The notes under the pieces are model-generated. The model was not told where the DNA came from. It did no database searches and saw only the letters and a program-made list of their open reading frames with translations. Made by a program: the position numbers and the translations under genes. From NCBI GenBank assembly GCA_902791945.1, contig CADAXR010000001.1:18977-82976 (forward strand): a stretch of DNA of 64,000 nt, in the 5' to 3' direction. The DNA comes from an uncultured Bacteroidia bacterium. Its GTDB lineage: Bacteria > Bacteroidota > Bacteroidia > Bacteroidales > UBA932. This document shows positions 9,057 through 49,495 of this stretch, piece after piece; the stretch's first letter is position 1; every line of letters starts with the position of its first letter.

Positions 9057-9080
9057 AATGAATGTCAAACTATGATTTTT

Positions 9081-22984: not shown

Positions 22985-22990
22985 AGGGTG

Positions 22991-23017: not shown

Positions 23018-23020
23018 CAC

Positions 23021-24176: not shown

Positions 24177-27100
24177 ATGAAATTCCATTTTCTGACCTCC
24201 GTTATGCTGGTATTGTCCGTTTTGGACGCACTGGCACAGCCCCGTGATGTCGGTGGCAAGGTCAGCGACTCTTCCGGCGAGCCTCTTGCCGGCGCGATGG
24301 TTTTTGTCCAGGGGCCTGACGGAAATCCCCTGGCCACAGCCATGGCCGATATTGACGGCTCCTACAAAATCTCCTGCGGCGCGGATGACGTTCTAGAGTT
24401 CAGGTATCTGGGTATGAAGGACGTCTCGGAAAAAGTCGGCGGCCGGGAGCGTATCGATGTCGTGATGCAGCCTGACGCTGCGACTATGCTGGACGAGGCC
24501 GTTGCCATTGGCTATGGTTCCGTACGCAGGGAGGACCTTACGGGCAGCGTAAGCAACGTCAAGATGGGAGAAATAAGGGAGTCTCCCGCGACATCCGTGG
24601 ACCAGGCCCTCCAGGGTAAAATCGCCGGCGCAGACATCATGTCCACATCCGGTGAGCCCGGAGCTGCGACTTCCATACGTATCCGCGGAACACGCTCCAT
24701 CGAGGCCTCCAATGAGCCATTGATAGTAGTCGATGGCGTGATGGATGCCGTCAGCGACCTCAACGACATCAATCCTGCTGATATCGAAGATATTTCAGTT
24801 CTCAAGGATGCTTCCTCGACCGCCATTTACGGCGCAAGAGGCGCCAACGGCGTTATCCTTATAACGACGAAGGCCGGTTCCATTCAGCCGGCTTCGAAGC
24901 CGAATATCACTTTCAAGGCTACCGCCGGCATATCGATGCTGCCTTTCAAGCCTGACATCATGAATGCCACGGAGTTTTCAATCTACCGCAACGAATACTC
25001 TTATTTCCGTTACGGTTATGACAGCACTCGTCCGGTGTCTTCGATGACTGTCCCGGATCCGTTCTCCTACGGGGAGGGGACGGATTGGATCGACGCGATT
25101 ACCAAGATTGCTCCATATCAGAACTATTATTTCTCCATCGGAGGTGGCGGAAAGGCTACAAAATACTTCTTCTCGGCCAGTTATACTGACAACGATGGTA
25201 TCATAAAGAAGTCCGGAGAGAAGCGTTTCACCAGTACTTTCTCCATCAATCACCAACTATTCAAGTGGCTGAAAGTGGGATACAAGATGAATTTCACTTA
25301 TCGCCGCACCGAAAACCCGCTCACTCAGATCGGCGGAAAGAGCTGGTGGAACTCTGCGATGTATCTTTCCCCGCTGATCGGAGAGAGGGACAATTACAAT
25401 CCGCTGTACTACCAGGGGGCCGTTATCAATACCCCTGTGTCAGTGATAGAAAACGAAACGGATTATTACCGCCGTTTCTCCAACAGTCAGACTATCTGGG
25501 GAGAGGCCGATATTACGCAATGGCTGAAATTCAAAGTCCAATACAATTTCCTGCAGTTTGACAGGCAGCGTTTCCGTTACTACAAGTCCACGCTCCCCGC
25601 CAAGCAGGGCAGGGAAGGCGGAGATGCCTACCAGGAGTCCCTCCCAGAGTACCACCACACCGTCGAGGCCAATCTTAATGTCAGCAAGGACTGGAAGAAG
25701 ATCCACCATCTCGATGCTGTTGCGGGATTTACAGGGTTTATTATCGACTACACCAGGATGAGCGTCCAGGGCAAGGGTTACCTTGTGGATACCATGGCCT
25801 GGAACGACCTCGGTGCCGTCCAGGACAAGGAGACGTACACGATTGATTCCTACGGTCGCAAAAAGATCACAGAGTCTTTCCTTGCCAGGGTCAACTACAA
25901 TTACCGCAAGCGTTATTATCTCACTGTTACTGGCCGCGTGGATGGCGCCTCCAATTTCGCCGACAGGCGCAAATGGGGCTTCTTCCCTTCGGCTTCCGCA
26001 AAGTGGAATATCCACAACGAGAAGTTCCTTTCCGGAGCGAAAAATGTAGATGAACTTTCCCTGCGTGTCAGCGCCGGCCAGACAGGTAACGACGCAATCG
26101 GTTATTTCCTGTCCCAGGCGGCAGTCAGTTCTTTCTCGGGTTATCTGATTGACGGTTCGAGGGTTACTTCTTACAGGCCTTCCAGGATTTCGTCCCCTGA
26201 CCTGACGTGGGAGACGACCACTCTGTATAATGTGGGCCTTACCGGCAAGTTCTTCAACAACCGGCTGTCGGTCACGGCCGAAGCATACATTTCGCGTACC
26301 AAAGACCTTCTTCTGGAGGTGTCTGTCCCCAAGAGTACGGGTTATTCAAAGATACTCCAGAATCTTGGCGTAACCTCCAACAAGGGTCTTGAGCTCACGA
26401 TCGATTCCCGCAACATCGTCCGCAAGAATTTCACCTGGGAGACATCATTTACCATATCCCACAACAATCAGCGGGTACTTGATGTCGGCACCGAGGATTT
26501 CGTCTCCGTCTATAATTCCCCTTCCAACAATCCTTATATGATGCTGGGATATGTGAAGGGTTATCCGCTCAACGCCCTATGGGGATTCCATTATGCCGGG
26601 GTGTGGCACAATGAGGAGGAAGTCGCAAGAAATGAGATTACCCACGCCTATGCGGGCCAGACGGCATCCCGCGAGCTCGGCCTTCCACGCTACGTGGATG
26701 TGAACCACGACGGCGTTCTGACCCAGGACGACCTCTGCTACCTCGGCAACGCCGATCCGGTCATCTATGGCGGCCTTAACAACTCTTTCCGATACAAGAA
26801 CTTGAGGCTCAATATGTATTGGACATATAGCCTTGGAGGGAAGATCTACAACTACACGATGTTCTGGATGGCCGGCGGAATCTACACCAACCAGTACCGT
26901 TTTATGCTGGATTCCTGGCATCCGGTGAGAAATCCTGAATCGAACATCCCGCGCGCCGGCAACTACGAGACGGCGGTACCTTCGGACTTTATGGTGTACG
27001 ATGCCTCGTATCTTCGCCTCCAGGATCTCAGCCTGAGCTATACTCTAAAGCTTTCTAAGAAGACATTCCTCAAGGATATAGTATTTACCATCTCAGGCAA

Positions 27101-27242: not shown

Positions 27243-27243
27243 T

Positions 27244-28749
27244 ATGAAAAGGACATTATACATATCGGTAATCCTGCTTATTGCGGCGTCCTGCTCCCTT
27301 AAGGAGCCTGGGAATCTTTTCGTGTCTCCTGACTTTGTCAAGACGCTCCAGCAGGCTGATGCGTGCGTAACCGCGACATACACTCCGCTCAAGACTATCT
27401 ACGCCCTCGAGTTCGGCATTGCCACCGAGGGATGTACGGATCTGTTCCATATCCAGTCTGGTACCCAGGATGCCCAAATGGATGTTTCCCCGGCTAACGC
27501 CAGGTTCGGGAACACTGTCTGGGAGTATGCTTACGCCGGAGTGCGTAACGCCAACTTTGCACTTTGGGCAATGGATAATTCTGGCCTCAGCGATGAGGAT
27601 CTGGCGCCCCTGAGGGCGGAGACCCTTGCTATGAGGGCCTACTGGTATTATCTCCTTACCAGCTTTTTCGGTGATGTCCCGTACTATGAGGAATATGTCG
27701 GTGACCGTCCGACGCTGGACAGGGTGCGGCATCTTCCGAGACAGGACGCCGTGCAGACACGCAGCATCCTCATCAGCCAGCTGGAGGAAGCAGTGAAGGA
27801 TATGCCAGCTCAGCGTGCTTACGACCTTAAACTGCAGCGCGCCGGCTGGGCGTTCACCGAGATGCTTATTGCTAAAATGGCGATGTGGAATGCCTGTAAG
27901 GATCCGGATAATGCATCTTCCTGGTGGGCTAAGGCGATAACGGCCCTCGAAGCACTGGAAGAGGTTTACGGTGATTTAACGGAGGAGTCATATCCCCTGA
28001 ACGATGTGTCTTTCCGTATCAAGAACACTCCGGAGAGCATCTTCGAAATCCAGCACACCTATACCCCCGGCGGCCTGCAGTATTCGGCCAATTATGGTGC
28101 CGTGTTGATGCCCTATCCACAGAAAAAGGATGAGGCGACAGGAAAATGTACTTTCAACGGTATCGAAGTGCCTGAACTCGGAACCGAGTGTATAGTCTGG
28201 CAGCCGATGCGTCCCAATGCTTACCTCCACAACGGACTCTTCGTAAAGGGCAGTTCCGACCGCAGGGTTGGCTGGGCGATTGTCTACAGTTGGAACGGTA
28301 AGGATTTCAGCCGCAGCTGGCCCGGTCCCAAATTCTGGTGCTACAACATGGTCAACACCAGTGACAGCAACAATTATCCGATATTCCGGTATGCTGATGC
28401 CGTGTTGATGCTGGCTGAGTGCTACAACGCCTCTGGAGCGCCTGAAAAAGCTATCGAGCATCTCAATAAGGTCAAGACCCGTGCGGGTTTGGCCCCATTC
28501 TCCAATTATACCACACCGGACAGGCTTCTGGATGAGATTCAGATGGAGCGGGGCAGGGAGCTTCTCGGAGAATTCCAGCGCAAATTCGACCTTGTCCGCT
28601 GGGGTGTCTGGTTCAAGAGGACTTATGAATTCACTGACTATCAGGCTCTAAAGAACAATATCCGTCCCTGCCACGAATATTATCCCATACCTGATACGGA
28701 AGTCGCACTCTCTGAGGGCGCCCTGGACAATAAAGCCTACGAGCAATGA
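27244..28749 (+). CDS. SusD/RagB-family surface glycan-binding lipoprotein
   Basis: A lipoprotein of 501 residues (ILLIAASCSLKEP) that caps the SusC channel and captures substrate. Family features are the N-terminal helical TPR scaffold (FGNTVWEYAYAGVRNANFAL, AETLAMRAYWYYLLTSFFGD) and the C-terminal conserved block (EIQMERGRELLGEFQRKFDL, then HEYYPIPDTEVAL). The stop overlaps the start of the next gene by ATGA, so translation is coupled. Ligand specificity cannot be read from the sequence. Confidence 0.95.
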   Translation: MKRTLYISVILLIAASCSLKEPGNLFVSPDFVKTLQQADACVTATYTPLKTIYALEFGIATEGCTDLFHIQSGTQDAQMDVSPANARFGNTVWEYAYAGVRNANFALWAMDNSGLSDEDLAPLRAETLAMRAYWYYLLTSFFGDVPYYEEYVGDRPTLDRVRHLPRQDAVQTRSILISQLEEAVKDMPAQRAYDLKLQRAGWAFTEMLIAKMAMWNACKDPDNASSWWAKAITALEALEEVYGDLTEESYPLNDVSFRIKNTPESIFEIQHTYTPGGLQYSANYGAVLMPYPQKKDEATGKCTFNGIEVPELGTECIVWQPMRPNAYLHNGLFVKGSSDRRVGWAIVYSWNGKDFSRSWPGPKFWCYNMVNTSDSNNYPIFRYADAVLMLAECYNASGAPEKAIEHLNKVKTRAGLAPFSNYTTPDRLLDEIQMERGRELLGEFQRKFDLVRWGVWFKRTYEFTDYQALKNNIRPCHEYYPIPDTEVALSEGALDNKAYEQ

Positions 28750-31193
28750 GAAGGATACTGATAATGGCGGCGCTGCTGCTTGCTGCCGTCTCCTGCAAGG
28801 ACAAATTCGAGTTCTCCCGTCCGCTTTCCCTTCAAAGTGAAAGGATATTCCTGGAGGCCGCCGAGGGAAGTACCCCTGTCATTGTCTATGCCAATGGCTC
28901 CTGGACGGCTTCGCTCATTGAAGGCGCCGGATGGGCCCGCATCGAAAACACTTCCGGCAGCGGACTTGGCGAAGTGAAATTCTACTATGATGCCAATGAA
29001 GGACTCTCCCGCAAGGCCGTCATAGAAATATCATCTGCCGGTGAAAGGTGCAGTGTGGCGATGATCCAGAAAGCCGGATTCGGCGACATACAACTTTCGT
29101 TCGCCGCCGCTTCGGCAGACCTTCCTAGAAATGCCGCTACCGGCTCCATACCGTTTACTACAAACCTTCCTTCATCCGAACTCGGCAAAATAGAGATCAG
29201 CGCTGTGACAGAGGAGGGCACCCCAGTGACCTGGCTGAGCGGGCTTGCCGTCATGGACGGCGAGGTGTCCGTCGGAGTGTCGGCACTGGAGGGGACAGAG
29301 CGTGTCGCGGTCGTCACGCTCTCCTACCTTGACGCGATGGAAGAGTCTTTCCGCTCGTCCATAAAGCTCACTCAGAAGGATGAAGCTCCCTATCTGAGTT
29401 TCTCCGAAGATGTCGTCGGAGCGCGATATTCATCTCTCGCGGCTTCGGTTTCACTGCCATTTACAACCAACCTTGTCCCGTATCTCGGAGCCATTGCTTC
29501 AAGGGCGGAATCTTCCGCTTCGTGGGCGAGGGTCAGCCTTCCGGGGGACGGGACTCAGGCTTTTGTTGTAGAGATGGACGAAAACGAAGATCTGGCCGAG
29601 CGCAGCGCCACTTTGAGCTTCCCGTTTACCGATGCCTCAGGTGTCACTGCGACATTTGAGTACCAGCTGACACAGAAAGGCAAGGTCCGTCGCCTTAGTT
29701 TCGATGATCTCAAGGCCCTTGTGACAGGGGAGGAATACTATTTTGTGGGTGATGGCGCAATAGAGTGTATCGCCATCTCCGATATGGATTCCCCCAATAT
29801 GGAAACTGCTCCAAATACCGATGCCGCCACCCTCGATGGAACACTGAACGGCAGGACCGGCTATATCCAGAGCGTTGACGGCACTTCCGGATTCCGGCTT
29901 CTCTTCGCGACGCGTCAGGACAATGTCCTTCATAGGGGAGATAAAGTCATGCTTGATCTTAGTGGCACGACAATCCGGAGGGAAAGCAATCCCGAGCGTT
30001 ATACCATTGAGGATGTGACGTCCGAAGCTGTAGCGGTTGAAGGCGGCGTGGATCCCGAGCCGCGCGAAAAAACCCTGTCGGCTCTTGAAGATTCCGATAT
30101 CTACACCTTGGTGAAGGTAACGGGCCTGGAGATGAGTTTCAAGCATGGAGCATACACCAACTGCCACGACGGATATTCCCTTGTGGTAAGTGCGCTCAAC
30201 CCTGCCGGCAAGAAGACCAATGAGTCGGGCTCTTCCAGCTCTCCGCAGAAGTTTGACACCACTCCCTGCAGTATGATAGATGCTTCCGGCAATGAGATCA
30301 ATCTCCTGATAAACAACGCCGTGACCTGGCGCCGTTATGGAAACGGCGTGCCGCAGGGCACCTGCTCCGTGACCGGTATCCTGGTCCACACGGAACTGGC
30401 GCGCTGGGCCCGCGGTGGAGACATCGGCCGGTACCAGCTACGCCCTTTGGCGGAGGAAGATATCGTGGCGACTGGAGAGCGCTTCTCAAGGGAGATAGTC
30501 TCCTGGCACAAGGGGTGGGACGGTACCCAGATCAACGGGGCCGATGCGATAACTTCCGGCCTTCACGGGGAAGGCGTTATCTCCAGCAATATGGAAAGCG
30601 TGGCGACCATACAGACTGCGGTGAATTTCAATTCGCTGACCAACTACAACGCTTCTCCTGCCACTGACGGGTACTACAAGGGGCAGGTCTCCAACGGCGC
30701 CCTTGCTTTCAAGAAGACCGGAGGCTATTTCTGGGCCTCATCGGATATATCAGACATGGGCGCTGCCCCGTGGTTCTGCATCAAGTTCTCCACGGCGGGA
30801 CTTTCGGGTAGCAATCTCAGCTTTATCTGGAGCGCTGCACAAGGTTCAAGCCGCGGTGCAACCGACGATATCCAGGGACCCACCCAGTACAAGGTGGAGT
30901 ATTCCACCGATGGCACGTCGTTCACTGCAATAGATCATATCTATGCGATGCATCCCATTGTGACGTGGTCAAGCGCAGTTATCGGCGGCTTCTCCGTCCC
31001 TGGACTTCATCAGTATGTGACGACTCTCCCGGCATCGCTGCTGGGACAACCCAATGTCTGGGTGAGAGTCCGGGCCGCATCGAACGTTTCGCTCGATGAT
31101 GATTACCTGACGCCTGAAGGAGGAACCATCAAAAACTACTCTTCAGTCTACACTATGGTGCGTTTCGGCGAGCTCACCATACAATATAATTAA
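28746..31193 (+). CDS. BACON-repeat and DUF5689 surface lipoprotein
   Basis: A lipoprotein of 815 residues (LLAAVSCKDKFEFS), in the place usually held by SusE-type binding proteins. About three BACON-like beta-sandwich modules occupy residues 20-310, each ending in a VTL..KG or TQKG-type strand (SVAMIQKAGFGD, SIKLTQKDEAP, YQLTQKGKVRR). A DUF5689 OB-like region (about 315-575, TGYIQSVDGTSGFRLLF, then YRLRPL-like end) follows, with a jelly-roll-type C-terminal domain (SATQGSSRG region to the end). It has no catalytic motif. It is paralogous in its second half to the next two genes. Probable ligand capture at the cell surface. Confidence 0.75.
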   Translation: MRRILIMAALLLAAVSCKDKFEFSRPLSLQSERIFLEAAEGSTPVIVYANGSWTASLIEGAGWARIENTSGSGLGEVKFYYDANEGLSRKAVIEISSAGERCSVAMIQKAGFGDIQLSFAAASADLPRNAATGSIPFTTNLPSSELGKIEISAVTEEGTPVTWLSGLAVMDGEVSVGVSALEGTERVAVVTLSYLDAMEESFRSSIKLTQKDEAPYLSFSEDVVGARYSSLAASVSLPFTTNLVPYLGAIASRAESSASWARVSLPGDGTQAFVVEMDENEDLAERSATLSFPFTDASGVTATFEYQLTQKGKVRRLSFDDLKALVTGEEYYFVGDGAIECIAISDMDSPNMETAPNTDAATLDGTLNGRTGYIQSVDGTSGFRLLFATRQDNVLHRGDKVMLDLSGTTIRRESNPERYTIEDVTSEAVAVEGGVDPEPREKTLSALEDSDIYTLVKVTGLEMSFKHGAYTNCHDGYSLVVSALNPAGKKTNESGSSSSPQKFDTTPCSMIDASGNEINLLINNAVTWRRYGNGVPQGTCSVTGILVHTELARWARGGDIGRYQLRPLAEEDIVATGERFSREIVSWHKGWDGTQINGADAITSGLHGEGVISSNMESVATIQTAVNFNSLTNYNASPATDGYYKGQVSNGALAFKKTGGYFWASSDISDMGAAPWFCIKFSTAGLSGSNLSFIWSAAQGSSRGATDDIQGPTQYKVEYSTDGTSFTAIDHIYAMHPIVTWSSAVIGGFSVPGLHQYVTTLPASLLGQPNVWVRVRAASNVSLDDDYLTPEGGTIKNYSSVYTMVRFGELTIQYN

Positions 31194-31198
31194 GGCGT

Positions 31199-33376
31199 AT
31201 GAAAAAGACAGCCATATTACTGATTTCTGTTCTTGCAGCAATCTCCTGTAAATACGACGAGGCTCGCCTGACGGCTCCGGTCGAACTTGGAGCCGTGCCG
31301 GTGACAGTGAACATGCCCACATCAGGAGGGGATGTGGACATACCTTTCTATGCCAACCTTCAGGGAACGATCTCCCTCCTTGACGACAGCCCATGGGCAA
31401 CGCTGGGTTCAACGTCTTTTTCCGGTGACGGTTCGCTAAGGGTGAGCGTCGCTGCTAACGACGGGATCAGGCGTTATGCAAGGGTCCTGTTCAGCGCCGA
31501 TAATGTTGCAAGGCGTGACACTGTCACGATCCGTCAGGACGGTATTACGGACACCCTCACTGTGAGCTCCACCAGCGTTATCGTCTATAACAGGATGGGG
31601 GACACCTCCATCCCTGCGTCGATGACTCTTGACCCGTCTTCAGTCAAGGCCACCGTGCGTTATCTTGACACTTCTGGCTCTTCCTGGGTAAAGGCTTGCA
31701 GTGTCAGGAACAATGCTGTGATTGTGAGGACGGACGATAATCCGAGCGAAACCGATGTAAGGAGTGCAGTGCTCACCCTTTCCTGGACCAACGGCTGGGC
31801 CCAGAAAATTCACCGCAACATCAACCTGACCCAGGCGACGAGTGCTGCTTCCGGCAACCTCGTTGGGATCCCGACGAGTTTTGAGCAGGTTAGGGCGATG
31901 GCTGCGGCCGAGCCACAGGTGATTCAGGACAATATCTACCTCGAGGGCTATATCGTGAGTGACCGTGCTTCAGGCAACGTGGCAGAGAATCCCCAGCGTA
32001 CGTCCACGTCGATAGATTATACAGTAACAGAAAAGAGTGCGGTGTTCGAGAGCCTTGACGGAAAGTATGGATTCCTTATGGAGACCATCAGCAAGGATGA
32101 TAATGTTTTCGAGCCGTTCAGCAAGGTGACGCTCCTTCTTTCCGGCGCTCAGCTCAGAAAAATATCTTCCCCGGACAGGTATATCATCTCCAATGTCCGT
32201 TCTTCGATGGTGGCTTCATCAGTCGTGGTGGGAGAGGACGGTATCCCTTCCAAAATAATGCATATCTCCAATCTCAAGGATGACGACATCTACACAAGGG
32301 TGACTCTCGCCGACTGTGAATTCCCCATACGCAAAGGCGGTCTTTCTCCTCTGAATGAAGGATATACGCGGACTCTGAACGTCGACCGCGTAACCAAGTC
32401 CGCTTCCCTTGTCAGGGACAGTGAGGGCAATTCGATCTATCTTTACACCAACACCACATGTCCTTATCGCCGTGACGGCCGTAAGATAGGGAACGGTAGC
32501 GGTCCCGTCAGTGGCATAGTTGTGAGCGAGGAATATGAAAGCTTCCGGGAAGTCGGAAGATATCAGCTCAGACACCAGCGGTGGGAGGATCTCGGTTTTG
32601 CATCCGATGTTTCCGACGGCTTCTCATCACTGCTTTGCGAATGGCGCTATCTCCGCCAGGGGAACGCCGACCACAGCTGGAGCGCGACCGCCGGAAGCGG
32701 CACTATGACACACACATACACACTGGCTTCTCCCAATCCTACATACAACACATGGTGTTATCCCTGCTATGACCAGAGTTATCTCGGCCCTGTGTACAAG
32801 AGCTGCACGAATGAAAACGGTTTTGGTATCACACTGGAAGACGGCACCGACTATGCTTCTTCCTACACGGGAAGCGTCGAGAAGGGACAGCTCCTTGTCG
32901 GCGCCGGATGGCCGATGGCATGGATGAAGGAGACCTGGATCAGCAATTCCGGACAGTTCTATTCATGGGAATTGCATTTCTCGACGAAAAATATCACTAC
33001 TGATGTCCTTTCCCTTCAGATATCGACCCTCAACGCCTCCCAGGAGGGGAAGAGCCCGGTCCACTGGAAGGTTGAATGGGCACCGTCCAATGATTCCGGA
33101 GCCCAGTGGGCCACCGTGGCCACTTACAGCGTCCCCGATGTGGTCCTGTGGTCGCTGACCCAGCCCTGGCAGAGCGCGGGCTACAAACCCGTCAATATTC
33201 AGCTGCCGCTGGAGATGCTAGGCCTTGATGACGTCTATATTCGCCTGACCCCGGCGGACACAGCCGGCAATACCCCACAGGGCTACTGTGACACCAAGTT
33301 TGTCAACGGCAGCGCCGGCTCGACTTCCAAGGCCAACAATGCCCTGAACTATGTAGCCGTAAGATACAATAAGTAA
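31199..33376 (+). CDS. DUF5689 lipoprotein, second paralogue
   Basis: A lipoprotein of 725 residues (VLAAISCKYDEA). Two BACON-like modules come first (VSVAANDGIRRYARVLF, TVTIRQDG). A DUF5689 region with YLEGYIVSDRASGNVAENPQ and KYGFLMETISKDDN follows, then a C-terminal jelly-roll-like domain (FSTKNITTDVLSLQIS). The phrase IYTRVTLADCEF matches IYTLVKVTGLEM in the upstream gene and LYTWVSIPESEF in the downstream one, showing common ancestry. DUF5689 proteins of Bacteroidota are often beside extracellular EEP nucleases or phosphatases, as here. The next gene starts at its stop codon. Confidence 0.72.
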   Translation: MKKTAILLISVLAAISCKYDEARLTAPVELGAVPVTVNMPTSGGDVDIPFYANLQGTISLLDDSPWATLGSTSFSGDGSLRVSVAANDGIRRYARVLFSADNVARRDTVTIRQDGITDTLTVSSTSVIVYNRMGDTSIPASMTLDPSSVKATVRYLDTSGSSWVKACSVRNNAVIVRTDDNPSETDVRSAVLTLSWTNGWAQKIHRNINLTQATSAASGNLVGIPTSFEQVRAMAAAEPQVIQDNIYLEGYIVSDRASGNVAENPQRTSTSIDYTVTEKSAVFESLDGKYGFLMETISKDDNVFEPFSKVTLLLSGAQLRKISSPDRYIISNVRSSMVASSVVVGEDGIPSKIMHISNLKDDDIYTRVTLADCEFPIRKGGLSPLNEGYTRTLNVDRVTKSASLVRDSEGNSIYLYTNTTCPYRRDGRKIGNGSGPVSGIVVSEEYESFREVGRYQLRHQRWEDLGFASDVSDGFSSLLCEWRYLRQGNADHSWSATAGSGTMTHTYTLASPNPTYNTWCYPCYDQSYLGPVYKSCTNENGFGITLEDGTDYASSYTGSVEKGQLLVGAGWPMAWMKETWISNSGQFYSWELHFSTKNITTDVLSLQISTLNASQEGKSPVHWKVEWAPSNDSGAQWATVATYSVPDVVLWSLTQPWQSAGYKPVNIQLPLEMLGLDDVYIRLTPADTAGNTPQGYCDTKFVNGSAGSTSKANNALNYVAVRYNK

Positions 33377-36371: not shown

Positions 36372-36373
36372 CC

Positions 36374-36508: not shown

Positions 36509-36527
36509 CCGTTAACGTATGCAAGCT

Positions 36528-39266: not shown

Positions 39267-39273
39267 TCTCTCC

Positions 39274-39309
39274 ATGGTCAGGGGCGGGGAGCCCTCTGCC
39301 CCTGACCAT
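39274..39309 (+). promoter_or_regulatory. 12-bp perfect hairpin between the two GLUG genes
   Basis: ATGGTCAGGGGC (39274-39285) pairs exactly with GCCCCTGACCAT (39298-39309), loop of 12. It begins 8 bases after the stop codon and is GC-rich but lacks a strong T run, so it looks like an attenuator or an mRNA-stabilising stem. It could lower expression of the downstream genes. Confidence 0.5.
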
Positions 39310-39332
39310 TATTTCCTGTAAACGGAAAGCGT

Positions 39333-41810: not shown

Positions 41811-41814
41811 AACG

Positions 41815-42714
41815 ATGAGAAAGATACTATATTCAATTGCAATAGCCACCCTTGCTTTTTCCTGCGCGCCGAAGCCGTATGAAGGCCCGGCCCACGTGGT
41901 GTTGATCGGGGTGGACGGATGGTCTGCATCAAGTTTTTCCGAAGGGGATTTTCCTTTTATCAAGAGTCTGGAGGACAAGGCCTCCTGGACTCTTGACAAG
42001 CGCTGTGTCTTCCCGACAGCAAGCGCCATCAACTGGATGTCAATCCTGTCCGGAGTCTCTCCTGAGTATCATGGATACGTCAGATGGGATTCCCGCAGGC
42101 CGGACATCACACCCGCATGGACGGATGAACGCGGGAAGGTCCCGACTATATTCTCCCTTGAAAGGCAGGCGCATCCTGAAAGTGACATCCTCGTAACTTA
42201 TCAGTGGGATGTGATACGTTCCCTGGTCGATTCCACGGCCGTCACCACCATCGTTGATTTCCCGCAGACAGAGGAAGGTGACTGGGAGGAGGCAGAATGG
42301 GCGTCGGAATATCTGAGGACCGAAAAGCCGAAGTTTTCCTTTATTTATTTCGGCAGTCTCGATGCCACGGGTCATAAATATGGCTGGGAATCTGAAGAGT
42401 ATCTCAGCTATGCGTCGCATCTGGACAGTGTTATAAAACACCTCATTCAAAGTGTGGAAAAAGTGTTTACGGATGACAACACGGTGTTTATCTTCACTTC
42501 CGATCACGGTGGCCACGGACATCACCACTCCACGGAATATGTGGATCAGACGCTCCAGACTCCGCTATTCATCTGGGGGAAAGGGATAAAGAGGGGACAC
42601 CGTATCGAAGCCCCTTCGGTCGAAATGGATGTGACAGCTACGATGGCGAGACTCCTTGGAGTTGAGCCGCTTCCTCATTGGAAGGGATGCAGCATTGACG
42701 AAATCTTCGAATAA
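41815..42714 (+). CDS. NPP-type phosphodiesterase / alkaline-phosphatase-superfamily lipoprotein
   Basis: A lipoprotein of 300 residues (IATLAFSCAPK). It has the two-metal fold of nucleotide pyrophosphatase/phosphodiesterases: VVLIGVDGW (metal Asp), FPTASAINWMSILSG (nucleophile Thr), DATGHKYG (Asp/His) and TSDHGGHGHHH (Asp/His). Members hydrolyse phosphodiesters in nucleotides, lysophospholipids, glycerophosphocholine or phosphorylated glycans. The specificity is not readable here. The start at 41815 follows the GLUG stop by 4 bases. The peptide gene begins 6 bases after its stop. Confidence 0.85.
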   Translation: MRKILYSIAIATLAFSCAPKPYEGPAHVVLIGVDGWSASSFSEGDFPFIKSLEDKASWTLDKRCVFPTASAINWMSILSGVSPEYHGYVRWDSRRPDITPAWTDERGKVPTIFSLERQAHPESDILVTYQWDVIRSLVDSTAVTTIVDFPQTEEGDWEEAEWASEYLRTEKPKFSFIYFGSLDATGHKYGWESEEYLSYASHLDSVIKHLIQSVEKVFTDDNTVFIFTSDHGGHGHHHSTEYVDQTLQTPLFIWGKGIKRGHRIEAPSVEMDVTATMARLLGVEPLPHWKGCSIDEIFE

Positions 42715-42720
42715 TTGTCG

Positions 42721-42834
42721 ATGACAGGGTATCATATTCCTAAATGCACCCTTGTGGATCTTTGCCCCGAAGAGGGCATTCTTGTCGCTTCTGCCGAACA
42801 GATGAACATAGTAAAAGATGATTGGGATGACTAA
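42721..42834 (+). CDS. Short acidic-tailed peptide (37 aa) overlapping a fimbrillin-EEP gene
   Basis: A small ORF that starts MTGYHIPKCTLVDLCPEEG and ends in KDDWDD. The segment EGILVASAEQMNIV aligns without gaps to EGEILTSVESMNIV of the peptide at 9081 (EG, S, E and MNIV conserved), and both finish with W followed by acidic residues. This is the best evidence that the short ORFs form a real family. Its last 8 bases overlap the start of the next gene (ATG at 42827 lies within its last codons), so translation of the two is likely coupled. Confidence 0.65.
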   Translation: MTGYHIPKCTLVDLCPEEGILVASAEQMNIVKDDWDD

Positions 42835-44446
42835 GAATCGTTTTATCATATCAGTCTTGCTGCTTGTTGCGGCATGCCACGGGAAGGATGAACCGATATC
42901 TCCGGAGGAGGGGACGACCACATTGCGCTTCAGCGCAACGATGGAGGCGATCTCAAGAGCCGGCGTGGATGGTGAAGGGAATGTGACCTGGCAGTCCGGA
43001 GACAGGATAGCGGTCTTGCTCGATAATGGCGATGTCACTTCGCTGACCCTTGAAAGCGGGGAAGGCACTGCGTCGGCTTCTTTCAGCGGGGAAATCCCTT
43101 CCGGGAGGTCATTCGCCGGCAAAGCGGCTTATCCCTGGTGGGACGGAGCCTGGAACTCGTCGGCGGGAGAACTTGTCCTAACCCTGCCTGAATCAGTGGT
43201 CTGGCCTGGAGATGATTATGTCCCTGCCATTATGAAGGCGACGGCATCCGACGACAATCTTCCCTTTAAACATGAAGGGGCTATCATGCAGTTTACTATA
43301 AAAAACATTCCTGCGTCGATAGCATCCTTTAAATTCACGTCATCTGAAGGGGCGGTGATGGGTCGGAATGACTTTACATATACTTTTACGCCATCTTCAT
43401 CCACCCGTGTATTTCATATTCCCGTGAGTGCGGGGACGCTGCCGGCTTATACCGTTACCTTGAATGATACATCCGATAACCCTTCCCTGTCCAAAACGAA
43501 AAACAGGACTACCAATGTCTCACGTTGTGATTTTCGTGAGTTGACGCCGCTTGGCGTGGAGGTGGTCGGCAAATTCCGGGTAATGGAGTACAATGTGCTG
43601 GACGGGATGAGCCGTGACAGTGAGAATAATTATGACAATTTTGTCGCCTGGGTGCGTTCGCTGGCTCCCGACGTGCTGGTTCTTTGTGAGGCTGGCGATT
43701 TGAACCTTATTAGTGAACGCTGGGGGCATGCTTACTATGCCAAAATTATGAAGGATAATTATCCATTAGTCATAACCTCCTCTCATCCCATAACAGTAAA
43801 CGAAAGAATCTCTGGATCTTCCACTAGACATGGAGCACTATATGTCTCCGTGGCGGGGTATGATGTCGTCGGAGTCCACCTGCGCCCGACCGTGGATGAC
43901 GACGGCTCCGGGAACCTGTCGCCTGAGGAATATGCCAAATATGGAGCGCTTAGGAAGACGGAGCTGGAATATATTCTTTCACAGACAATTGACAATTCCT
44001 CGTATGCGGACCGGTCCAATTGGATTTTCTGCGGAGATTTCAATGCTTATTCTCCACTGGAGAAGACGGCAGTCAGTCCTTTCGGGGGTAAAAGTGCCTA
44101 TGCTTATTCTGAGCCCACGGCATCGGTATGCTATGAAGTGTATCCTCTGATTGCTGACAGATTGAAGGATGTCGTCTACTATAAGGGCGGAACTGCCTTC
44201 AGGCCCACGATGTATCACGGCCGCTCACGTCTGGATTATATTTTTGCAAGCGAAGGCTTATATCCCGGGGTGGACGTGGCTAGAGTGGCCCTTGGCGGTT
44301 TCCCTGGTAATTACAATAACGATGACGTGAATCCATCGGACCATATGCCTCTTCAAATGGATTTGGTTACGTATGCCTTTAAGGTCCTGGACGGCTATAT
44401 GAGTCTCGAGGACTGGCCTGAAGAAGATTTGATCACAGAAAACTGA
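42827..44446 (+). CDS. Fimbrillin-like domain fused to EEP phosphodiesterase, lipoprotein
   Basis: A lipoprotein of 539 residues (LLLVAACHGKDEP). Residues about 25-240 are Mfa-like fimbrillin (NVTWQSGDRIAVLL, AAYPWWDGAW). A complete EEP domain follows: VMEYNVLDGM, DVLVLCEAG, IFCGDFNAYSPLEK, SRLDYIFA and PSDHMPLQMDL, so all metal and catalytic residues are present. It is the second EEP enzyme of the operon but is not closely alike to the propeller-EEP. The fimbrillin part may tether the enzyme to surface structures. The start at 42827 overlaps the peptide. An ATG at 42818 would overlap it by 17 bases. Confidence 0.8.
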   Translation: MTKNRFIISVLLLVAACHGKDEPISPEEGTTTLRFSATMEAISRAGVDGEGNVTWQSGDRIAVLLDNGDVTSLTLESGEGTASASFSGEIPSGRSFAGKAAYPWWDGAWNSSAGELVLTLPESVVWPGDDYVPAIMKATASDDNLPFKHEGAIMQFTIKNIPASIASFKFTSSEGAVMGRNDFTYTFTPSSSTRVFHIPVSAGTLPAYTVTLNDTSDNPSLSKTKNRTTNVSRCDFRELTPLGVEVVGKFRVMEYNVLDGMSRDSENNYDNFVAWVRSLAPDVLVLCEAGDLNLISERWGHAYYAKIMKDNYPLVITSSHPITVNERISGSSTRHGALYVSVAGYDVVGVHLRPTVDDDGSGNLSPEEYAKYGALRKTELEYILSQTIDNSSYADRSNWIFCGDFNAYSPLEKTAVSPFGGKSAYAYSEPTASVCYEVYPLIADRLKDVVYYKGGTAFRPTMYHGRSRLDYIFASEGLYPGVDVARVALGGFPGNYNNDDVNPSDHMPLQMDLVTYAFKVLDGYMSLEDWPEEDLITEN

Positions 44447-44447
44447 C

Positions 44448-45497
44448 ATGAGAAAGATCGCAATCATCGGCGCCGGGATGATGGGTTCGGCGCTTGCTTT
44501 TCCAGCCCGGGAAAACGGTCACGATGTCCGGTTGGTGGGGACCCCGCTTGATCGGGATATTATCGACTCTTGCCGCCTCACGGGGCAGCATCCGAAGTTC
44601 GATCGTCCGTTCCCTGACGGGATACGGTATTTTCAGTTCGAGGAGTGGCGGAAAGCTGTAGAGGGCGTTGACTTTGTCATTGGAGGTGTTTCGTCGTTCG
44701 GTGTAGACTGGTTTCTGGATAATGTCCTATGCTGCCTTGATCCGTCAGTCCCTGTTCTCTCTGTCACAAAGGGCCTTATCAATCTGAATGACGGTTCCTT
44801 GATTTCTTATCCGGAATACTGGCAGAGAGAGTTGGCCGGTAAGGGTATCCAACGTACGGTCTGCGCCATCGGAGGCCCCTGCACCAGCTATGAACTGGTA
44901 TTCCACGACCAGACGGAGGTGGCGTTTTGCGGCGAGTCCTCAGGACAGATCCGTATGATGAAGGATGCGATGCAGACATCGTATTATCACATCTCCCTCA
45001 CCAATGACGTTATCGGTCTGGAGAGCGCCGTGGCACTGAAGAACGGCTATGCCCTCGCAATTGCGATGACCATCGGTCTTGTGAACCGTCACCACGGACC
45101 CGAGGCCGGCCTGCATTTCAATTCACAGGCGGCTGCGTTCTATCAGGGCGTCAAGGAGATGCGTCTCCTGCTTGAAATGCAGGGCGCAAGCCGCGATTCC
45201 GAGAACATCGGTATCGGAGACCTTTACGTGACGGTCTATGGCGGTAGGACGCGCAAGGTAGGCATCCTCCTCGGTGAGGGAAAAACTTATCAAGAGGCCA
45301 TGGACATCCTTGCCGGGGTGACGCTTGAGAGCCTTGTCGTCTCGCGGAGGGTGTACAATGCGATGGTCAGAAAAGCCGAACTCGGCCTGGTGGATCTTGC
45401 CGATTTCCCGATGCTCTGCCATGCGGCCGCCGTTCTTGACGAGGGTCGTGACGCAGAACTGCCGTGGGAACTCTTTACCTTCGACCAGACAAGGTAG
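44448..45497 (+). CDS. GpsA-like glycerol-3-phosphate dehydrogenase
   Basis: A cytoplasmic enzyme of 349 residues with an N-terminal Rossmann motif IAIIGAGMMGSALAF and a central Lys in the conserved VTKGL segment. A second conserved Lys sits in AVALKNGYAL, and the C-terminal helix block (GIGDLYVTVYGGRTRKVG) also matches GpsA. GpsA interconverts glycerol 3-phosphate and dihydroxyacetone phosphate with NAD(P). Placement beside a glycerol-3-phosphate importer argues for a catabolic role that feeds glycolysis, instead of the usual anabolic one. It is probably a second copy, besides a housekeeping gpsA elsewhere. The match to the family is good but divergent, so a related sugar-phosphate substrate is possible. 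Confidence 0.8.
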   Translation: MRKIAIIGAGMMGSALAFPARENGHDVRLVGTPLDRDIIDSCRLTGQHPKFDRPFPDGIRYFQFEEWRKAVEGVDFVIGGVSSFGVDWFLDNVLCCLDPSVPVLSVTKGLINLNDGSLISYPEYWQRELAGKGIQRTVCAIGGPCTSYELVFHDQTEVAFCGESSGQIRMMKDAMQTSYYHISLTNDVIGLESAVALKNGYALAIAMTIGLVNRHHGPEAGLHFNSQAAAFYQGVKEMRLLLEMQGASRDSENIGIGDLYVTVYGGRTRKVGILLGEGKTYQEAMDILAGVTLESLVVSRRVYNAMVRKAELGLVDLADFPMLCHAAAVLDEGRDAELPWELFTFDQTR

Positions 45498-45500
45498 GCG

Positions 45501-46880
45501 ATGGATACGGAGATAAGGCGCAGGTATGTAAAATTACAGTGGAAGACCCTTATCATCCTTATGATAGGGTACATCTGCTATTATTTTCTCAGGAAGAATT
45601 TCAGCGCTGCGATTCCTGCCATGGAGGCCACCCTCGGTCTTTCCAAGGTGCAGCTCGGTACATTCCTCACCCTCAATGGGATAGTTTACGGATTGTCCAG
45701 AATGGTCAACGGAATACTGTCGGACAGGTATTCAAAACGGATTCTGATGTCCCTTGGTCTTTTGCTTTCCTGCATCATCAACCTCGCCATTTGCTTTTCG
45801 CCGCGGATGAACGGTTTACTGAATCTTCTGGACGGAGAGGGGAAGGCCACTCTTGGTCTGGTCTATCTTATCGGTTCGCTGTGGATTCTCAACGGATACG
45901 TGCACGGGATGGCCTATCCGCCCATTGCCGCAATGATGGCGCACTGGTTCCAACCTTCGGAACTCGCAACCAAACAGAGTATATGGAATGCATCGCATTC
46001 AATCGGAGCAGGCCTTGTAATCGCACTTTGCGGCTGGATGCTGTCCCGTTTCGGCTACAGCGCCTGGAACCTTTGTTTCATAGTCCCGGCAGTCATCGCT
46101 TTTTTCGGCGCGGTTTTAATGTTCTTCTCGCTTAAGGATACTCCTGAAGAATGCGGTCTGCCTTCAGTAGAAGCACTTGAGGTCAATCCCGGTGTCTCTG
46201 AAGGTGAATCTATCAAACTCTCCCCGGAACGTCTTAGGAAGTTCATTTCCCGTATGGTGTTCCGCAATCCATACATCTGGAGTATATCCATCGCCGATTT
46301 CTGCGTTTACGTAATTCGTTTCACGATACTTGAATGGGGTACTTCGTTCCTCACGCAGTACAAAGGTCTGGAAATAGCGCTCGCCGCCAGCATTGTCGCT
46401 GCCTCGGAGCTGATTGGCGGCGTACTGGGCACCCTGGCCGCCGGCTGGGCGACGGACAAGCTGTTTAAGTCCCATACGCTGCGCTCAAGTGCTTTGTTCA
46501 CTCTGGGAGCAACTCTGTGTTTTACTGCTTTCTGGCTTATCCCAAGCGACGCCCACTGGGTTTGGAGCGCCGTAGCCATCGTCGCGGCCTCCTTCTTTAT
46601 CTATGGGCCGCAAGCGCTCCTGGGAGTAAGCTGCTCGCAATATGCCACCAGGCGGGCCAGTGGTAGCGCCAATGGTTTCTGCGGTATTTTTTGTTACGGC
46701 GCGACGGTAATCTCCGGCATCGGATTCGGCTTTTTGGCCGGACATCCGGGCTTTGGCTGGAACGCAGTATTTATCGTCGCTATAGTTTTCGGTTTTCTGG
46801 GGTCGATCATCCTTGGCGGGTGTTGGAATTCACCGTCCAACGGGTATGAAAAAGCCCAAAGAGTACTTTCTGAGTTATGA
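45501..46880 (+). CDS. GlpT/UhpT-type organophosphate:phosphate antiporter (MFS)
   Basis: A 459-residue inner-membrane carrier with 12 predicted membrane segments. It has the OPA-family N-terminus (GYICYYFLRKNFSAAIPAM, where the YxRxN-type motif contains an Arg), and the loop GLSRMVNGILSDRYSKR. It exchanges an organophosphate such as glycerol 3-phosphate or hexose phosphate for phosphate. The neighbouring GpsA-like dehydrogenase and GDPD domain favour glycerol 3-phosphate. Start 4 bases after the dehydrogenase stop, and the next gene overlaps its end by ATGA. Confidence 0.87.
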   Translation: MDTEIRRRYVKLQWKTLIILMIGYICYYFLRKNFSAAIPAMEATLGLSKVQLGTFLTLNGIVYGLSRMVNGILSDRYSKRILMSLGLLLSCIINLAICFSPRMNGLLNLLDGEGKATLGLVYLIGSLWILNGYVHGMAYPPIAAMMAHWFQPSELATKQSIWNASHSIGAGLVIALCGWMLSRFGYSAWNLCFIVPAVIAFFGAVLMFFSLKDTPEECGLPSVEALEVNPGVSEGESIKLSPERLRKFISRMVFRNPYIWSISIADFCVYVIRFTILEWGTSFLTQYKGLEIALAASIVAASELIGGVLGTLAAGWATDKLFKSHTLRSSALFTLGATLCFTAFWLIPSDAHWVWSAVAIVAASFFIYGPQALLGVSCSQYATRRASGSANGFCGIFCYGATVISGIGFGFLAGHPGFGWNAVFIVAIVFGFLGSIILGGCWNSPSNGYEKAQRVLSEL

Positions 46881-49495
46881 GAAAAATTTCACTGGTGATT
46901 TTACTCCTTGCGGTTGCCCTTATAGCAATGGCACAGCCGAAGATTATCGGGCATCGCGGCTGCCGTTTTGACGGGCCGTTCGAAAACACGCTCGCATCGA
47001 TGCGTTTTGCCGTCGAGGCCGGGGTGGACGCCATAGAATTCGATGTCCAACTTACCTCTGACAATCAGGTTGTTGTCTTTCACGGACCGATAGTCCCAGG
47101 ATTGGAAAAAGATATCAGGACTATTACATTCGAGGAGGCCAGGAAGGTCGATCTCCCGGGAGGTCACACGATGCCTACTATTTCTGAGTGGTTTGCTGAG
47201 GCAGCAAAGCATCCGGAGATACCGCTGATAATGGAGATAAAAAAGCAGCTTTCGGATGAGAAAACACTTCTTCTTACGCACAGGGTGCTTGAAGAGGTAT
47301 CAGGCACCAGTGTCTCTGTCGAATTTACGTCTTTCAGCACTCTTGCTCTCGATGAGATCCATTCCCTTAAGCCCGAGGCAAAACTGATATATCTCCAGAG
47401 TGGGACTCCTGTAAAATCGGCCTCCTGGGCCGCGGAACGGGGCTATAAGGGTATTTCTTGTAACCTGGACGGTTTTATGAATAATCCGGAGGTTATCGCG
47501 GAGGCAAAAAAACTTGGGGTCGAGACCACTCTGTGGCTTGTCAACGACAGGGAAGTGGCCGGTTGGGCTGTCCGCCACGGCGTTGACTGTGTGTCCTCCG
47601 ATCATCCGGAGAAGCTCGTGGAATGGCTCCGCCCGCTTCCAAAAGATGCCGGGCTCAGGACCCGCTGGGCTGGTGAAGTTGCCCCGTCCTCTCCGCTTCC
47701 GGAGTATCCGCGTCCTCAGATGGTGCGCCCCCTGTGGTATAACCTGAATGGGGAGTGGGATTATGCTATTCTCGGAATAGATGAGGAATTCGAAAGTCCG
47801 GATGGAAAGATAGCGGTACCTTTTGCCGCAGAATCTGCCCTTTCGGGCGTGAAAAAATACGTCGGACCGGACAAGGCATTGTGGTATTCCAGGACTTTTG
47901 AAATTCCGCGAGCGTGGAAAGGCAAAAGGGTTCTGCTGAACTTCGGCGCTGTGGACTGGCAGGCCGAGGTGTGGGTCAACGGCAGGAAGGCCGGTGTCCA
48001 CACCGGAGGTTATACACCTTTCAGTTTTGATATTTCCGGATTTCTCCGGAAAAAGGGCAGACAGGAGATAAAAGTTAAAGTCCTCGACGCTTCAGACCAG
48101 GGGTGGCAACCCCGCGGAAAGCAGTGCGATCACCCTCAGGGCATTTGGTATACTCCGGTTACAGGGATATGGCAGACAGTGTGGCTGGAAGCCGTCCCGG
48201 AGTCATCGATCAGCACCTATTACGCCACTGCTGATGTGGATAGTTCCAGGATTAACGTTCACGTCGAAGCCGAAGGACTGAAGGATGGCGACATTGTCAG
48301 GGTTGACCTCCGGGAGGGCGGTATTGGTTACAGCGCCGAGGCTCCTTCCGGTGCCATAATCGCATCAACCGAGGGGACGGATGTCGTGTTTACGGTTCCG
48401 TCTCCGCATCTGTGGTCTCCGTCAAGCCCCTGGCTTTACGGAATTGACATTTCCATTCTGCGGTCTGGAAAGGTTGTAGACAGGGTTTGCGGATACACTG
48501 CGATGCGCAAGATCTCGGTCATAATGGACACTGACACATTCCATAAGAGGAAAGGTGTCCCGCAGGGCTCCCTGCGCCTTGGACTCAACAATGAAATCCT
48601 TTTCCAGTTCGGCCCACTGGACCAGGGCTGGTGGCCTGACGGCCTCTATACTGCACCGACTGACGAGGCCCTGCGCTTTGATATCGAAAAAACGAAGGAA
48701 TGGGGTTTCAATATGATCAGAAAGCACATTAAGGTGGAGCCGGCGCGCTGGTACTACTGGTGCGATGCCCTTGGGCTGCTTGTGTGGCAGGACATGCCGT
48801 GCATAGGTGATCATAACGCCAAAAACAACGCGACCCGTTTGCCGGAGATAGCCAGTGCACAGGCGAATGTCTGGGCCAAGGATTCGTTTATCGGCGGCAC
48901 AGACTGTGATGTTCCTCTGCAGTGGAAGAACAATTACTATAAGGAGTGGGGAGAGATAATCGAAAGCCTGAAAGGGTTCCCCTGTATTGTCGTGTGGGTT
49001 CCGTTCAACGAGGGCTGGGGGCAGTTTGACACGGAGGATGTCGTTAGGTTCACCAAGACTAAAGACCCATCGAGGCTTGTGAACGAGTCTTCCGGCGGCA
49101 ACTTCCATTTTGCCGGGGACATCCTTGATGCCCACCATTATCCGGAGCCCAAGATGAATGTATTCGAACGGACGATGGTGAATGTGCTGGGGGAGTATGG
49201 AGGTATAGGTTATCCTGTCGAAGGCCATATATGGTTCCCGAAAGGGAAAAACTGGGGCTATGCCGGCCTCTGCAAGTCTCAGGAGGAAATATTGGAGCGT
49301 TACGAGTTGTATGCGGGGAGGCTAAAGGTGCTGATTGGCACGGGCTGCGCCGCCGCTGTTTACACACAGACCACTGACGTAGAGGTGGAAGTCAACGGAC
49401 TGATGACCTACGACAGACTTGAGAAGGTGGATGCTTCTGCCTTGAGAAGGATAAATGAGGCGGTTATCTCCGCTCCGACCTGGCTTGTAAAATAA
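46877..49495 (+). CDS. Fusion of glycerophosphodiester phosphodiesterase (GDPD) and GH2 beta-glycosidase
   Basis: An exported 872-residue fusion (signal LLAVALIAMAQP). Residues about 22-255 are GDPD: GHRGCRFDGPFENT (His26, Glu36), AIEFDVQLTSDNQVVVFHG (Glu54, Asp56, His69) and FTSFSTLALDEI. Residues about 270-872 are GH2: sugar-binding jelly roll, immunoglobulin-like domain (VRVDLREGG), then a TIM barrel with acid/base Glu712 in FNEGWGQF and probable nucleophile Glu773 in GEYGGIGY. GDPD releases glycerol 3-phosphate from glycerophosphodiesters. GH2 removes a beta-linked sugar. Together they would act on a glycosylated glycerophosphate unit. No sign of frameshift, so the fusion is real in this assembly. 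Confidence 0.85.
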   Translation: MRKISLVILLLAVALIAMAQPKIIGHRGCRFDGPFENTLASMRFAVEAGVDAIEFDVQLTSDNQVVVFHGPIVPGLEKDIRTITFEEARKVDLPGGHTMPTISEWFAEAAKHPEIPLIMEIKKQLSDEKTLLLTHRVLEEVSGTSVSVEFTSFSTLALDEIHSLKPEAKLIYLQSGTPVKSASWAAERGYKGISCNLDGFMNNPEVIAEAKKLGVETTLWLVNDREVAGWAVRHGVDCVSSDHPEKLVEWLRPLPKDAGLRTRWAGEVAPSSPLPEYPRPQMVRPLWYNLNGEWDYAILGIDEEFESPDGKIAVPFAAESALSGVKKYVGPDKALWYSRTFEIPRAWKGKRVLLNFGAVDWQAEVWVNGRKAGVHTGGYTPFSFDISGFLRKKGRQEIKVKVLDASDQGWQPRGKQCDHPQGIWYTPVTGIWQTVWLEAVPESSISTYYATADVDSSRINVHVEAEGLKDGDIVRVDLREGGIGYSAEAPSGAIIASTEGTDVVFTVPSPHLWSPSSPWLYGIDISILRSGKVVDRVCGYTAMRKISVIMDTDTFHKRKGVPQGSLRLGLNNEILFQFGPLDQGWWPDGLYTAPTDEALRFDIEKTKEWGFNMIRKHIKVEPARWYYWCDALGLLVWQDMPCIGDHNAKNNATRLPEIASAQANVWAKDSFIGGTDCDVPLQWKNNYYKEWGEIIESLKGFPCIVVWVPFNEGWGQFDTEDVVRFTKTKDPSRLVNESSGGNFHFAGDILDAHHYPEPKMNVFERTMVNVLGEYGGIGYPVEGHIWFPKGKNWGYAGLCKSQEEILERYELYAGRLKVLIGTGCAAAVYTQTTDVEVEVNGLMTYDRLEKVDASALRRINEAVISAPTWLVK

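Follow-up and report, generated by a model that had tools for sequence, protein, structure and literature searches.

Genes and layout of the locus

The window analysed here is a stretch of 64,000 nucleotides from an uncultured Bacteroidia bacterium (contig CADAXR010000001.1, positions 18,977 to 82,976 of the forward strand; assembly GCA_902791945.1), and it lies within one 83-kb contig of a source genome that consists of 187 contigs and is 96% complete. At 24177-49495 on the + strand, the listing of open reading frames (ORFs) gives 13 genes and two possible short peptides, from a SusC gene through a gene in which a GDPD domain is fused to a GH2 domain. A first-pass annotation had described this 15-member same-strand run as a gap-free Sus-type operon, and the run is indeed present: counting both peptides as genes, neighbours overlap or lie no more than 10 bases apart at 13 of the 14 junctions, and leaving the peptides out adds two gaps, of 147 and 103 bases. 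It is not entirely gap-free, however, as a single sizeable gap of 66 bases (39267-39332) separates the two GLUG lipoprotein genes and contains a hairpin that is more stable than its shuffled versions (-34.9 versus -19.7 kcal/mol, z = -4.8), possibly an element for mRNA processing or attenuation. Domains were called with Pfam and cell location was deduced from the N-terminal sequence, using what we take to be the lipobox rule for lipoproteins. The features are as follows, with the basis of each call in brackets.

19460-23020, - strand: hybrid two-component system (HTCS) regulator, the likely regulator of the locus, with Reg_prop, Y_Y_Y, HATPase, receiver and AraC HTH domains (Pfam; start inexact)
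23021-24088, + strand: GH43-like protein, probably part of the polysaccharide utilization locus (PUL) (Pfam; PDB relatives 9nxj, 9nxg and 3akf)
24177-27242, + strand: SusC-type TonB-dependent transporter (Pfam Plug; family alignment)
27244-28749, + strand: SusD-type protein (Pfam SusD_RagB)
28746-31193, + strand: BACON-DUF5689 lipoprotein (Pfam, DUF5689 below cut-off; sequence)
31199-33376, + strand: BACON-DUF5689 lipoprotein (Pfam; sequence)
33376-34800, + strand: DUF5689-type protein with no Pfam match (similarity to neighbour proteins)
34797-36371, + strand: BNR-like N-terminus fused to an EEP domain (Pfam; solved relatives)
36374-36508, + strand: possible short peptide, 44 aa (ORF)
36519-39266, + strand: GLUG-motif lipoprotein (Pfam; sequence)
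39274-39309, + strand: perfect 16-bp, GC-rich hairpin without a strong T-run (inside the 66-base gap)
39333-41810, + strand: GLUG-motif lipoprotein (Pfam; sequence)
41815-42714, + strand: predicted NPP-type phosphodiesterase with a lipoprotein-like N-terminus (Pfam; ATG taken at 41815)
42715-42834, + strand: possible short peptide, 39 aa, TTG start (ORF)
42818-44446, + strand: lipoprotein with a C-terminal EEP domain (Pfam; metal-site motifs intact)
44448-45497, + strand: GpsA-like NAD(P)-dependent dehydrogenase of a divergent family, RT for RN (Pfam; NCBIfam; alignment)
45501-46880, + strand: GlpT/PgtP/UhpC-family organophosphate antiporter (Pfam; NCBIfam)
46877-49495, + strand: GDPD domain (about residues 22-250) fused to a GH2 of the predicted furanosidase branch (about 255-866), with an N-terminal signal peptide
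49555-50415, + strand: esterase (PF00756), the probable last gene of the unit (Pfam)

Four phosphodiester-cleaving modules had been proposed within the run, and Pfam agrees on two EEP, one NPP and one GDPD, with predicted activities; the GDPD, GH2, EEP and NPP motifs are presumed to have the catalytic roles that we assign to them. The NPP-type protein has the motifs FPT (nucleophile) and SDHGGHGHH, and among its relatives are NPP, phosphodiesterase and sulfatase proteins. The EEP motifs GDFN and SDH are kept. Four chains of known structure, 3g6s, 3mpr, 4c1r (mannosyl-6-phosphatase) and 3l1w, match the BNR-EEP protein; the EEP lipoprotein at 42818-44446 matched none among the solved structures. 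The EEP structure model is poor (mean pLDDT 50), and little weight is given to it. For the third DUF5689-type protein (33376-34800) the model is all-beta, and its neighbours, at low TM scores, are OB-folds and jelly-rolls of the carbohydrate-binding module (CBM) type.

The earlier count of only one glycosidase is right inside the run, but the GH43 gene lies 88 bases upstream of SusC on the same strand, and the HTCS gene stands just upstream in the divergent orientation. With these two genes at its flank, the locus looks like a PUL with an unusual phosphoesterase content. The claim that phosphate linkages, not sugars, dominate is therefore too strong, since GH43 and HTCS adjoin the run and the GH2 domain groups with furanosidases by sequence.

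As the Bacteroidales-type promoter we took TTTG-N17-23-TANNTTTG, which we assume to be the consensus. This strict pattern matched at 5 places in the window versus 0.49 expected; there was no match across 18397-50463, and one lies at 50464-50494, just past the esterase gene. For this reason the unit probably runs past 49495 and ends with the esterase at 50415. Taken by itself, the second half of the promoter pattern is found at 24146-24153, ahead of SusC, and also within the run, and occurs at 29 places in the window versus 18 expected. No RNA family reached its gathering score in 22000-52000, and no tRNA gene was found within the window.

The short peptide at 42715-42834 resembles a small ORF at 9042-9200 in the window (E = 0.023), with the common pattern YxxP...ILxxxxxMNIV...W(D/E). 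A loose form of the motif picked 15 small ORFs in all, some of them just before GLUG genes (L123, L124), and this is perhaps a type of small peptide that precedes surface-protein genes. A search for relatives of the peptide at 36374-36508 found none; both peptides are plausible as genuine genes, not proven. Outside the operon, the window also contains a Y_phosphatase3 (tyrosine-phosphatase-like) protein at 11221-12474, and GH8 and AXE1 genes.

A conserved Sus core and a recurrent glycerophosphate module

The SusC, SusD, DUF5689-type and EEP genes form a conserved core, the history of which differs from that of the glycerophosphate module. Within the genus, all 18 loci of the SusC family (window included) have DUF5689-type genes and 13 have an EEP gene within 15 kb, counts that are biased because the loci were fetched via DUF5689-type or EEP matches; at SusC identities below 36%, EEP was seen in 5 of 16 rows, some of which are the same place. 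A less biased sample came from the named genomes, which were searched by SusC alone (best 80 of 598). DUF5689-type genes were found at 10 of the 10 loci with SusC identity of 42% or more and EEP at 8 of them, versus 2 and 1, respectively, of the 70 loci at 35% or less; the profiles were built from genus sequences and thus see close relatives better, and the named genomes may overlap with the others. The 10 named loci include rumen and goat assemblies, a Rikenellaceae assembly, Pedobacter frigoris and Desertivirga xinjiangensis, where the order is SusC-SusD-EEP-DUF5689-DUF5689-EEP.

GlpT, GpsA-like and GDPD genes are a recurrent module in the genus, which occurs also without this core. Among the matches listed for 150 relatives, the separate GDPDs with identity of 50% or more (G009, G072, G002 and G045) lie near GlpT and/or GpsA in all four cases, and of the 14 best GlpT relatives located elsewhere than in the window, 7 are accompanied by GDPD or GpsA at a distance of 7 kb or less, in accordance with the earlier proposal that these genes act as a system. 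A possible clade effect in the GlpT linkage (5/6 versus 2/8, p = 0.05) was dropped. The order is GlpT-GpsA-GDPD in G072, and in G009:C52 (L102 9624-13754) a run of DeoR, GlpT, GDPD and calcineurin-like phosphoesterase genes, the last with a match below cut-off to a twin-arginine (TAT) signal, looks like a compact operon for glycerophosphodiester uptake. Beyond the genus, few genomes have a match to this GlpT at E = 1e-80: within the order it was 3 of 295, the source genome included. Two further contigs of the source genome carry related genes: C71 (L109) has a GDPD-DUF4996 gene, an EEP-like gene, TIG-domain proteins and a NAGPA (phosphodiester glycosidase) gene, and C22 (L086) has SusC, a GDPD/PI-PLC-like protein and PQQ-propeller proteins.

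The GlpT-like and GpsA-like proteins are assigned at the level of the family. The GlpT-like protein scores 249.9 bits against the NCBIfam equivalog TIGR00712, whose cut-off is 632.55, and its best model, TIGR00881, is also below its cut-off; it contains FLRKNF and VIRFTILEW, the arginines of which we take to be the phosphate-binding pair. The GpsA-like protein is below every NCBIfam GpsA cut-off (best 97.5 versus 257 bits), and its nearest solved structure is 1txg. It keeps Lys-Asn, Asp and Arg of what is presumably the catalytic and phosphate site (Lys-Asn, Asp, Arg-Asn), with Thr in place of the Asn of Arg-Asn. Accordingly, of the claim that GpsA oxidises glycerol 3-phosphate, the GpsA-like gene stands and the function is a prediction. 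The source genome has two NAD_Gly3P_dh_C genes only, both of the divergent type, and the domain was not found in 51 of 101 genus genomes, many of them incomplete. We abandoned the idea of a mutual exclusion between canonical and divergent GpsA, as 14 genomes have the canonical and 37 the divergent type, with both in 2 of 101 (5 expected).

The Sus and glycerophosphate halves are also linked outside the window, in contig C8 of the source genome and in G082:C1, where GlpT and GDPD without a nearby GpsA are joined to the core. These two loci resemble the window at 53% for SusC, 45-46% for SusD and 72-76% for GlpT, and have several EEPs and a GDPD. The order in C8 is EEP, EEP, SusC, SusD, lipoproteins, EEP, GH31, GlpT, DUF4886, SDF transporter and GDPD, with one more gene labelled EEP by BLAST that has no Pfam match; the order of EEP, Sus, lipoprotein, EEP and GlpT in G082:C1 is as in C8, and GDPD directly follows GlpT. 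The core at G082:C16 comes with BNR-EEP, GH115, GH27-CE15, GH2 and a calcineurin-like phosphoesterase, and the mapped parts carry neither a GlpT nor a GDPD label. In contig C17 of the source genome the core comes with GH28, GH3 and EEP, and about 20 kb from it (L085 8967-13843) there is a GDPD gene and, two genes from it and of the same orientation, a GlpT-like gene of 31% identity; at G009:C51 the core comes with a LamG-GDPD protein. Since the payloads differ between core loci, each locus may suit a different polymer.

The GDPD-GH2 fusion and the substrate of the locus

What is surprising at this locus is the GDPD-GH2 fusion, together with the joining of a DUF5689-EEP Sus core to glycerol 3-phosphate uptake genes. 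The GDPD domain scores 90.8 bits against a Pfam curated cut-off of 23.6 and keeps the motifs HRG...EN, EFD and H; the GH2 part keeps FNEGWGQ and LGEYGGIG, with both catalytic Glu positions present. The GH2 part is nearest to 7sf2 (E = 2e-186), followed by 9j6n/9j6m, the beta-D-galactofuranosidase of Streptomyces JHA19, and most of its length aligns with 9j6n in two stretches (E = 2e-134). A galactofuranose-specific GH2 of this strain is described in the available part of one report (PMC4560423), and a review, in the part available, assigns 9J6M to GH2_18 and gives alpha-L-arabinofuranosides and beta-D-galactofuranosides as the substrates of GH2_18 and GH2_19 (PMC12243196). The long similarity to a characterised member and the two conserved Glu residues point to GH2_18, with a predicted activity, and judged by its sequence the domain belongs with furanosidases.

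Among the matches listed, no second GDPD-GH2 protein appeared in the 150 relatives (of which 93 gave a match at E = 1e-20, the source genome included; up to 6 candidates scored per genome) or in a phylum-wide set of 395 genomes (33 matching at 1e-60; up to 2 scored). Of the other GH2 loci, the 29 best were read with flanks of about 1.5 kb as far as the contig reached, and no GDPD was found in or beside GH2; among 90 plasmid records that gave a match, none reaches 80% coverage of the query. An assembly or frameshift artefact was considered and set aside; a natural fusion is more likely because the gene lies on the single 83-kb contig, the ORF is open for 872 codons, and a signal-peptide-like start is found before GDPD and not before GH2. 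The closest separate GH2s among the matches listed (76% and 75%, in G054 and G060) adjoin a histidine-phosphatase-family gene (L036 9986-11167, L037 9242-10492). An S1/P1 nuclease gene adjoins another GH2 relative (L042 13463-14308), and the genus has other GDPD fusions, with a GxDLY/GDSL esterase (L045 8247-10052) and with LamG (L114 2526-4346).

The fusion suggests that glycerophosphate and furanose occur on one substrate. Of the explanations considered we favour one, whose chances we regard as about even: the locus is a PUL for a glycerophosphate-bearing, furanose-containing glycan, in which glycerophosphodiester genes (GlpT, GpsA-like and GDPD) and furanosidases have been added to the SusC-SusD-DUF5689-EEP core; here we infer the substrate, the cell location, the order of steps and every enzyme activity. 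SusD and the surface lipoproteins (two BACON-DUF5689, two GLUG) would bind the phosphodiester-bearing glycan, the EEP (42818-44446) and NPP lipoproteins would cut or trim its phosphate linkages, and the pieces would be imported through SusC. In the periplasm, BNR-EEP might trim phosphate, and the GDPD domain would free glycerol 3-phosphate from glycerophospho-sugar ends, after which the fused GH2 would remove the exposed furanose (beta-D-galactofuranose or alpha-L-arabinofuranose). Glycerol 3-phosphate would then enter the cytoplasm via GlpT, where the GpsA-like enzyme may oxidise it to dihydroxyacetone phosphate. The dedicated system for a phosphodiester-linked glycan that had been proposed is thus supported in part: its glycerophosphate module is recurrent, but the furanosidase and sugar side had been underrated.

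The closest known polymer found in print is the phospho-glycero-beta-galactofuranan of Bifidobacterium bifidum, a fitting gut polymer that is described in the available parts of two reports (PMC8551831, PMC6920858). A narrower form of the reading is that the PUL is dedicated to galactofuranan-type polymers decorated with glycerophosphate on the surface of Gram-positive bacteria of the gut or rumen, from which GDPD-GH2 would strip glycerol phosphate and then galactofuranose; we consider this specific substrate improbable. Bifidobacterial and lipoteichoic glycerophosphate is sn-glycerol 1-phosphate, which counts against the idea, as GDPD, GlpT and GpsA are not expected to use that product. A CDP-glycerol-derived polymer would be a better stereochemical fit.

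Several other observations weigh against a PUL for a glycerophosphate-bearing glycan. The conserved set SusC-DUF5689-EEP-GlpT-GDPD, for which a search had been proposed, finds its broadest backing as SusC-SusD-DUF5689-EEP, but a GlpT match (E = 1e-60 or better) is on the contig of the core at 3 of the 18 genus loci only, some contigs being short; these are the window, C8 and G082:C1. GDPD is linked to the core in at least 4 of the 18, most of which were read for about 20 kb. Given these counts, of which the GDPD one is a lower bound, the core is not built for glycerophosphate. No GlpT, GpsA or GDPD was found within 10 kb of the 10 named core loci, which says little because those genes start 17 kb after SusC in the window, and none in the added downstream DNA (19.5 kb at one locus, 2-4 kb to the contig end at three). 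GDPD is present somewhere in all 9 genomes holding these loci, and the argument that named relatives are without glycerophosphate genes is weakened by flanks too short for the layout of the window. In the genus, the next GDPD (G044, 44-45%) has no labelled GlpT or GpsA nearby, and GpsA is often placed elsewhere, since GlpT is within 5 kb in only 9 and GDPD in only 3 of 38 GpsA-like loci. The GpsA-like protein has RT instead of RN in 39 of 39 sequences, with Asn in the three structures compared. The GH43-like protein apparently has Ser (SSPWLI) at what we take to be the position of the base Asp, by a motif assumed and not aligned, and so may be inactive or unusual. Finally, the hairpin at 39274-39309 may divide the transcript in two, and the core also fits nucleic acid.

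Nucleic acid uptake is the main rival for the core. In this explanation, which as a whole we think doubtful, the SusCD-DUF5689-EEP core imports extracellular nucleic acids or nucleotides, with OB-like lipoproteins binding DNA or RNA, EEPs as nucleases and NPP trimming nucleotides, and the GlpT/GpsA/GDPD-GH2 part is a mere neighbour for scavenging phosphate or glycerol 3-phosphate. The proteins that one report, in its available part, gives as essential to the natural transformation of Riemerella anatipestifer include one with DUF5689 (PMC8459023), and EEP and DUF5689 proteins follow SusC-SusD in Desertivirga and Pedobacter. The fold neighbours of the third DUF5689-type model include RPA, Teb1 and a cytosolic DNA sensor, but these similarities are weak (query TM 0.11-0.23 for the 50 listed) and extend to CBM4, CBM32 and an alginate-binding module as well. 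Similarly, nucleases (APE1, Mth0212 and exonuclease III type) and TDP2 make up the 50 best fold neighbours of the EEP model, but that model is the one with the low mean pLDDT, and the solved relatives of BNR-EEP include the mannosyl-6-phosphatase. Other core loci carry GH28, GH3, GH31, GH115, GH27-CE15 and GH2, and no nucleosidase family is among the Pfam matches of the window genes scanned, which are part of the total. The earlier alternative of nucleic acid scavenging thus gains some support for the core.

It is also unlikely, in our view, that the locus is a PUL for an arabinofuranose-bearing plant polysaccharide whose phosphoesterases only scavenge phosphate, with glycerophosphodiesters coming from lipids of the digesta. 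The GH43 protein has relatives of the arabinofuranosidase and xylosidase types, the esterase after the run has a weak, below-cut-off match to a xylanase/feruloyl esterase model, and the GH8 and AXE1 genes of the window, the core locus with GH115 and GH27-CE15, and GH28, GH3 and GH97 beside the closest GH2 relative agree with this explanation. GH2_18/19 also cover alpha-L-arabinofuranosidase in the part of the review available (PMC12243196). Nevertheless, the fusion suggests glycerophosphate and furanose on the same substrate, and in Pedobacter and Desertivirga, too, EEP accompanies the core, the neighbour genes scanned there being EEP and DUF5689. That two or more adjacent transcripts of unrelated function are close by chance is very unlikely: the hairpin and the separate occurrence of both halves in other genomes would allow it, but 13 of the 14 junctions are tight, no strict promoter-like site lies inside the run, and both C8 and G082:C1 likewise have GlpT and GDPD after the core.

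If the locus acts on glycans of bacterial or lipid-linked origin that bear phosphodiesters, it would show how the envelopes of neighbours are eaten and how organic phosphorus is recovered along with sugar by gut Bacteroidota, whose loci are known for the use of plant and host glycans. In the galactofuranan form, the envelope of a neighbour would give sugar, phosphate and glycerol 3-phosphate together. The question is directly testable because one purified fusion protein is predicted to make two successive cuts on one substrate, and the core shared with cultured Pedobacter and Desertivirga offers a tractable route to the DUF5689 ligand.

Comparison with known systems

No description of this gene set was found in the full-text literature searched, whose coverage of subscription papers is poor. 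Of the ideas in print, the Pus cluster of Flavobacterium comes nearest. In the available part of that report (PMC8115612), the PusCD clusters of F. johnsoniae combine SusCD-like proteins with phosphomono- and diesterases, uptake of organic phosphorus is proposed, and the clusters are induced by phosphate depletion and contrasted with PULs bearing carbohydrate-active enzymes (CAZymes), PUSI and PUSII having none. The present locus is alike in linking SusCD to phosphoesterases (two EEP, one NPP and one GDPD), but it has HTCS, GH43, GDPD-GH2, GlpT and GpsA-like genes, so that CAZymes (GH2 and GH43) are present.

With the HTCS-controlled PULs of Bacteroidota the locus shares HTCS, adjacent SusC and SusD, surface lipoproteins, an esterase and linked glycosidases (GH2 and GH43), the gene content of a PUL, to which it adds four putative phosphodiester-cleaving modules and a glycerophosphate-type transporter. 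The glp-type uptake of glycerophosphodiesters consists of GlpT, GlpQ/GDPD and GlpR. The occurrence of GlpT with GDPD, and in one relative also of a DeoR regulator, resembles this system, whereas the genes in the window sit in a Sus operon and the dehydrogenase is of a divergent NAD(P)-type. At the level of single proteins, the EEP domain at 34797-36371 is similar to that of the mannosyl-6-phosphatase 4c1r (E = 3e-26), but the window protein has a BNR-like part and its function is predicted. The GH2 domain resembles the GH2_18 beta-D-galactofuranosidase 9J6M/9J6N, including both Glu residues, and the window protein differs from it by the N-terminal GDPD.

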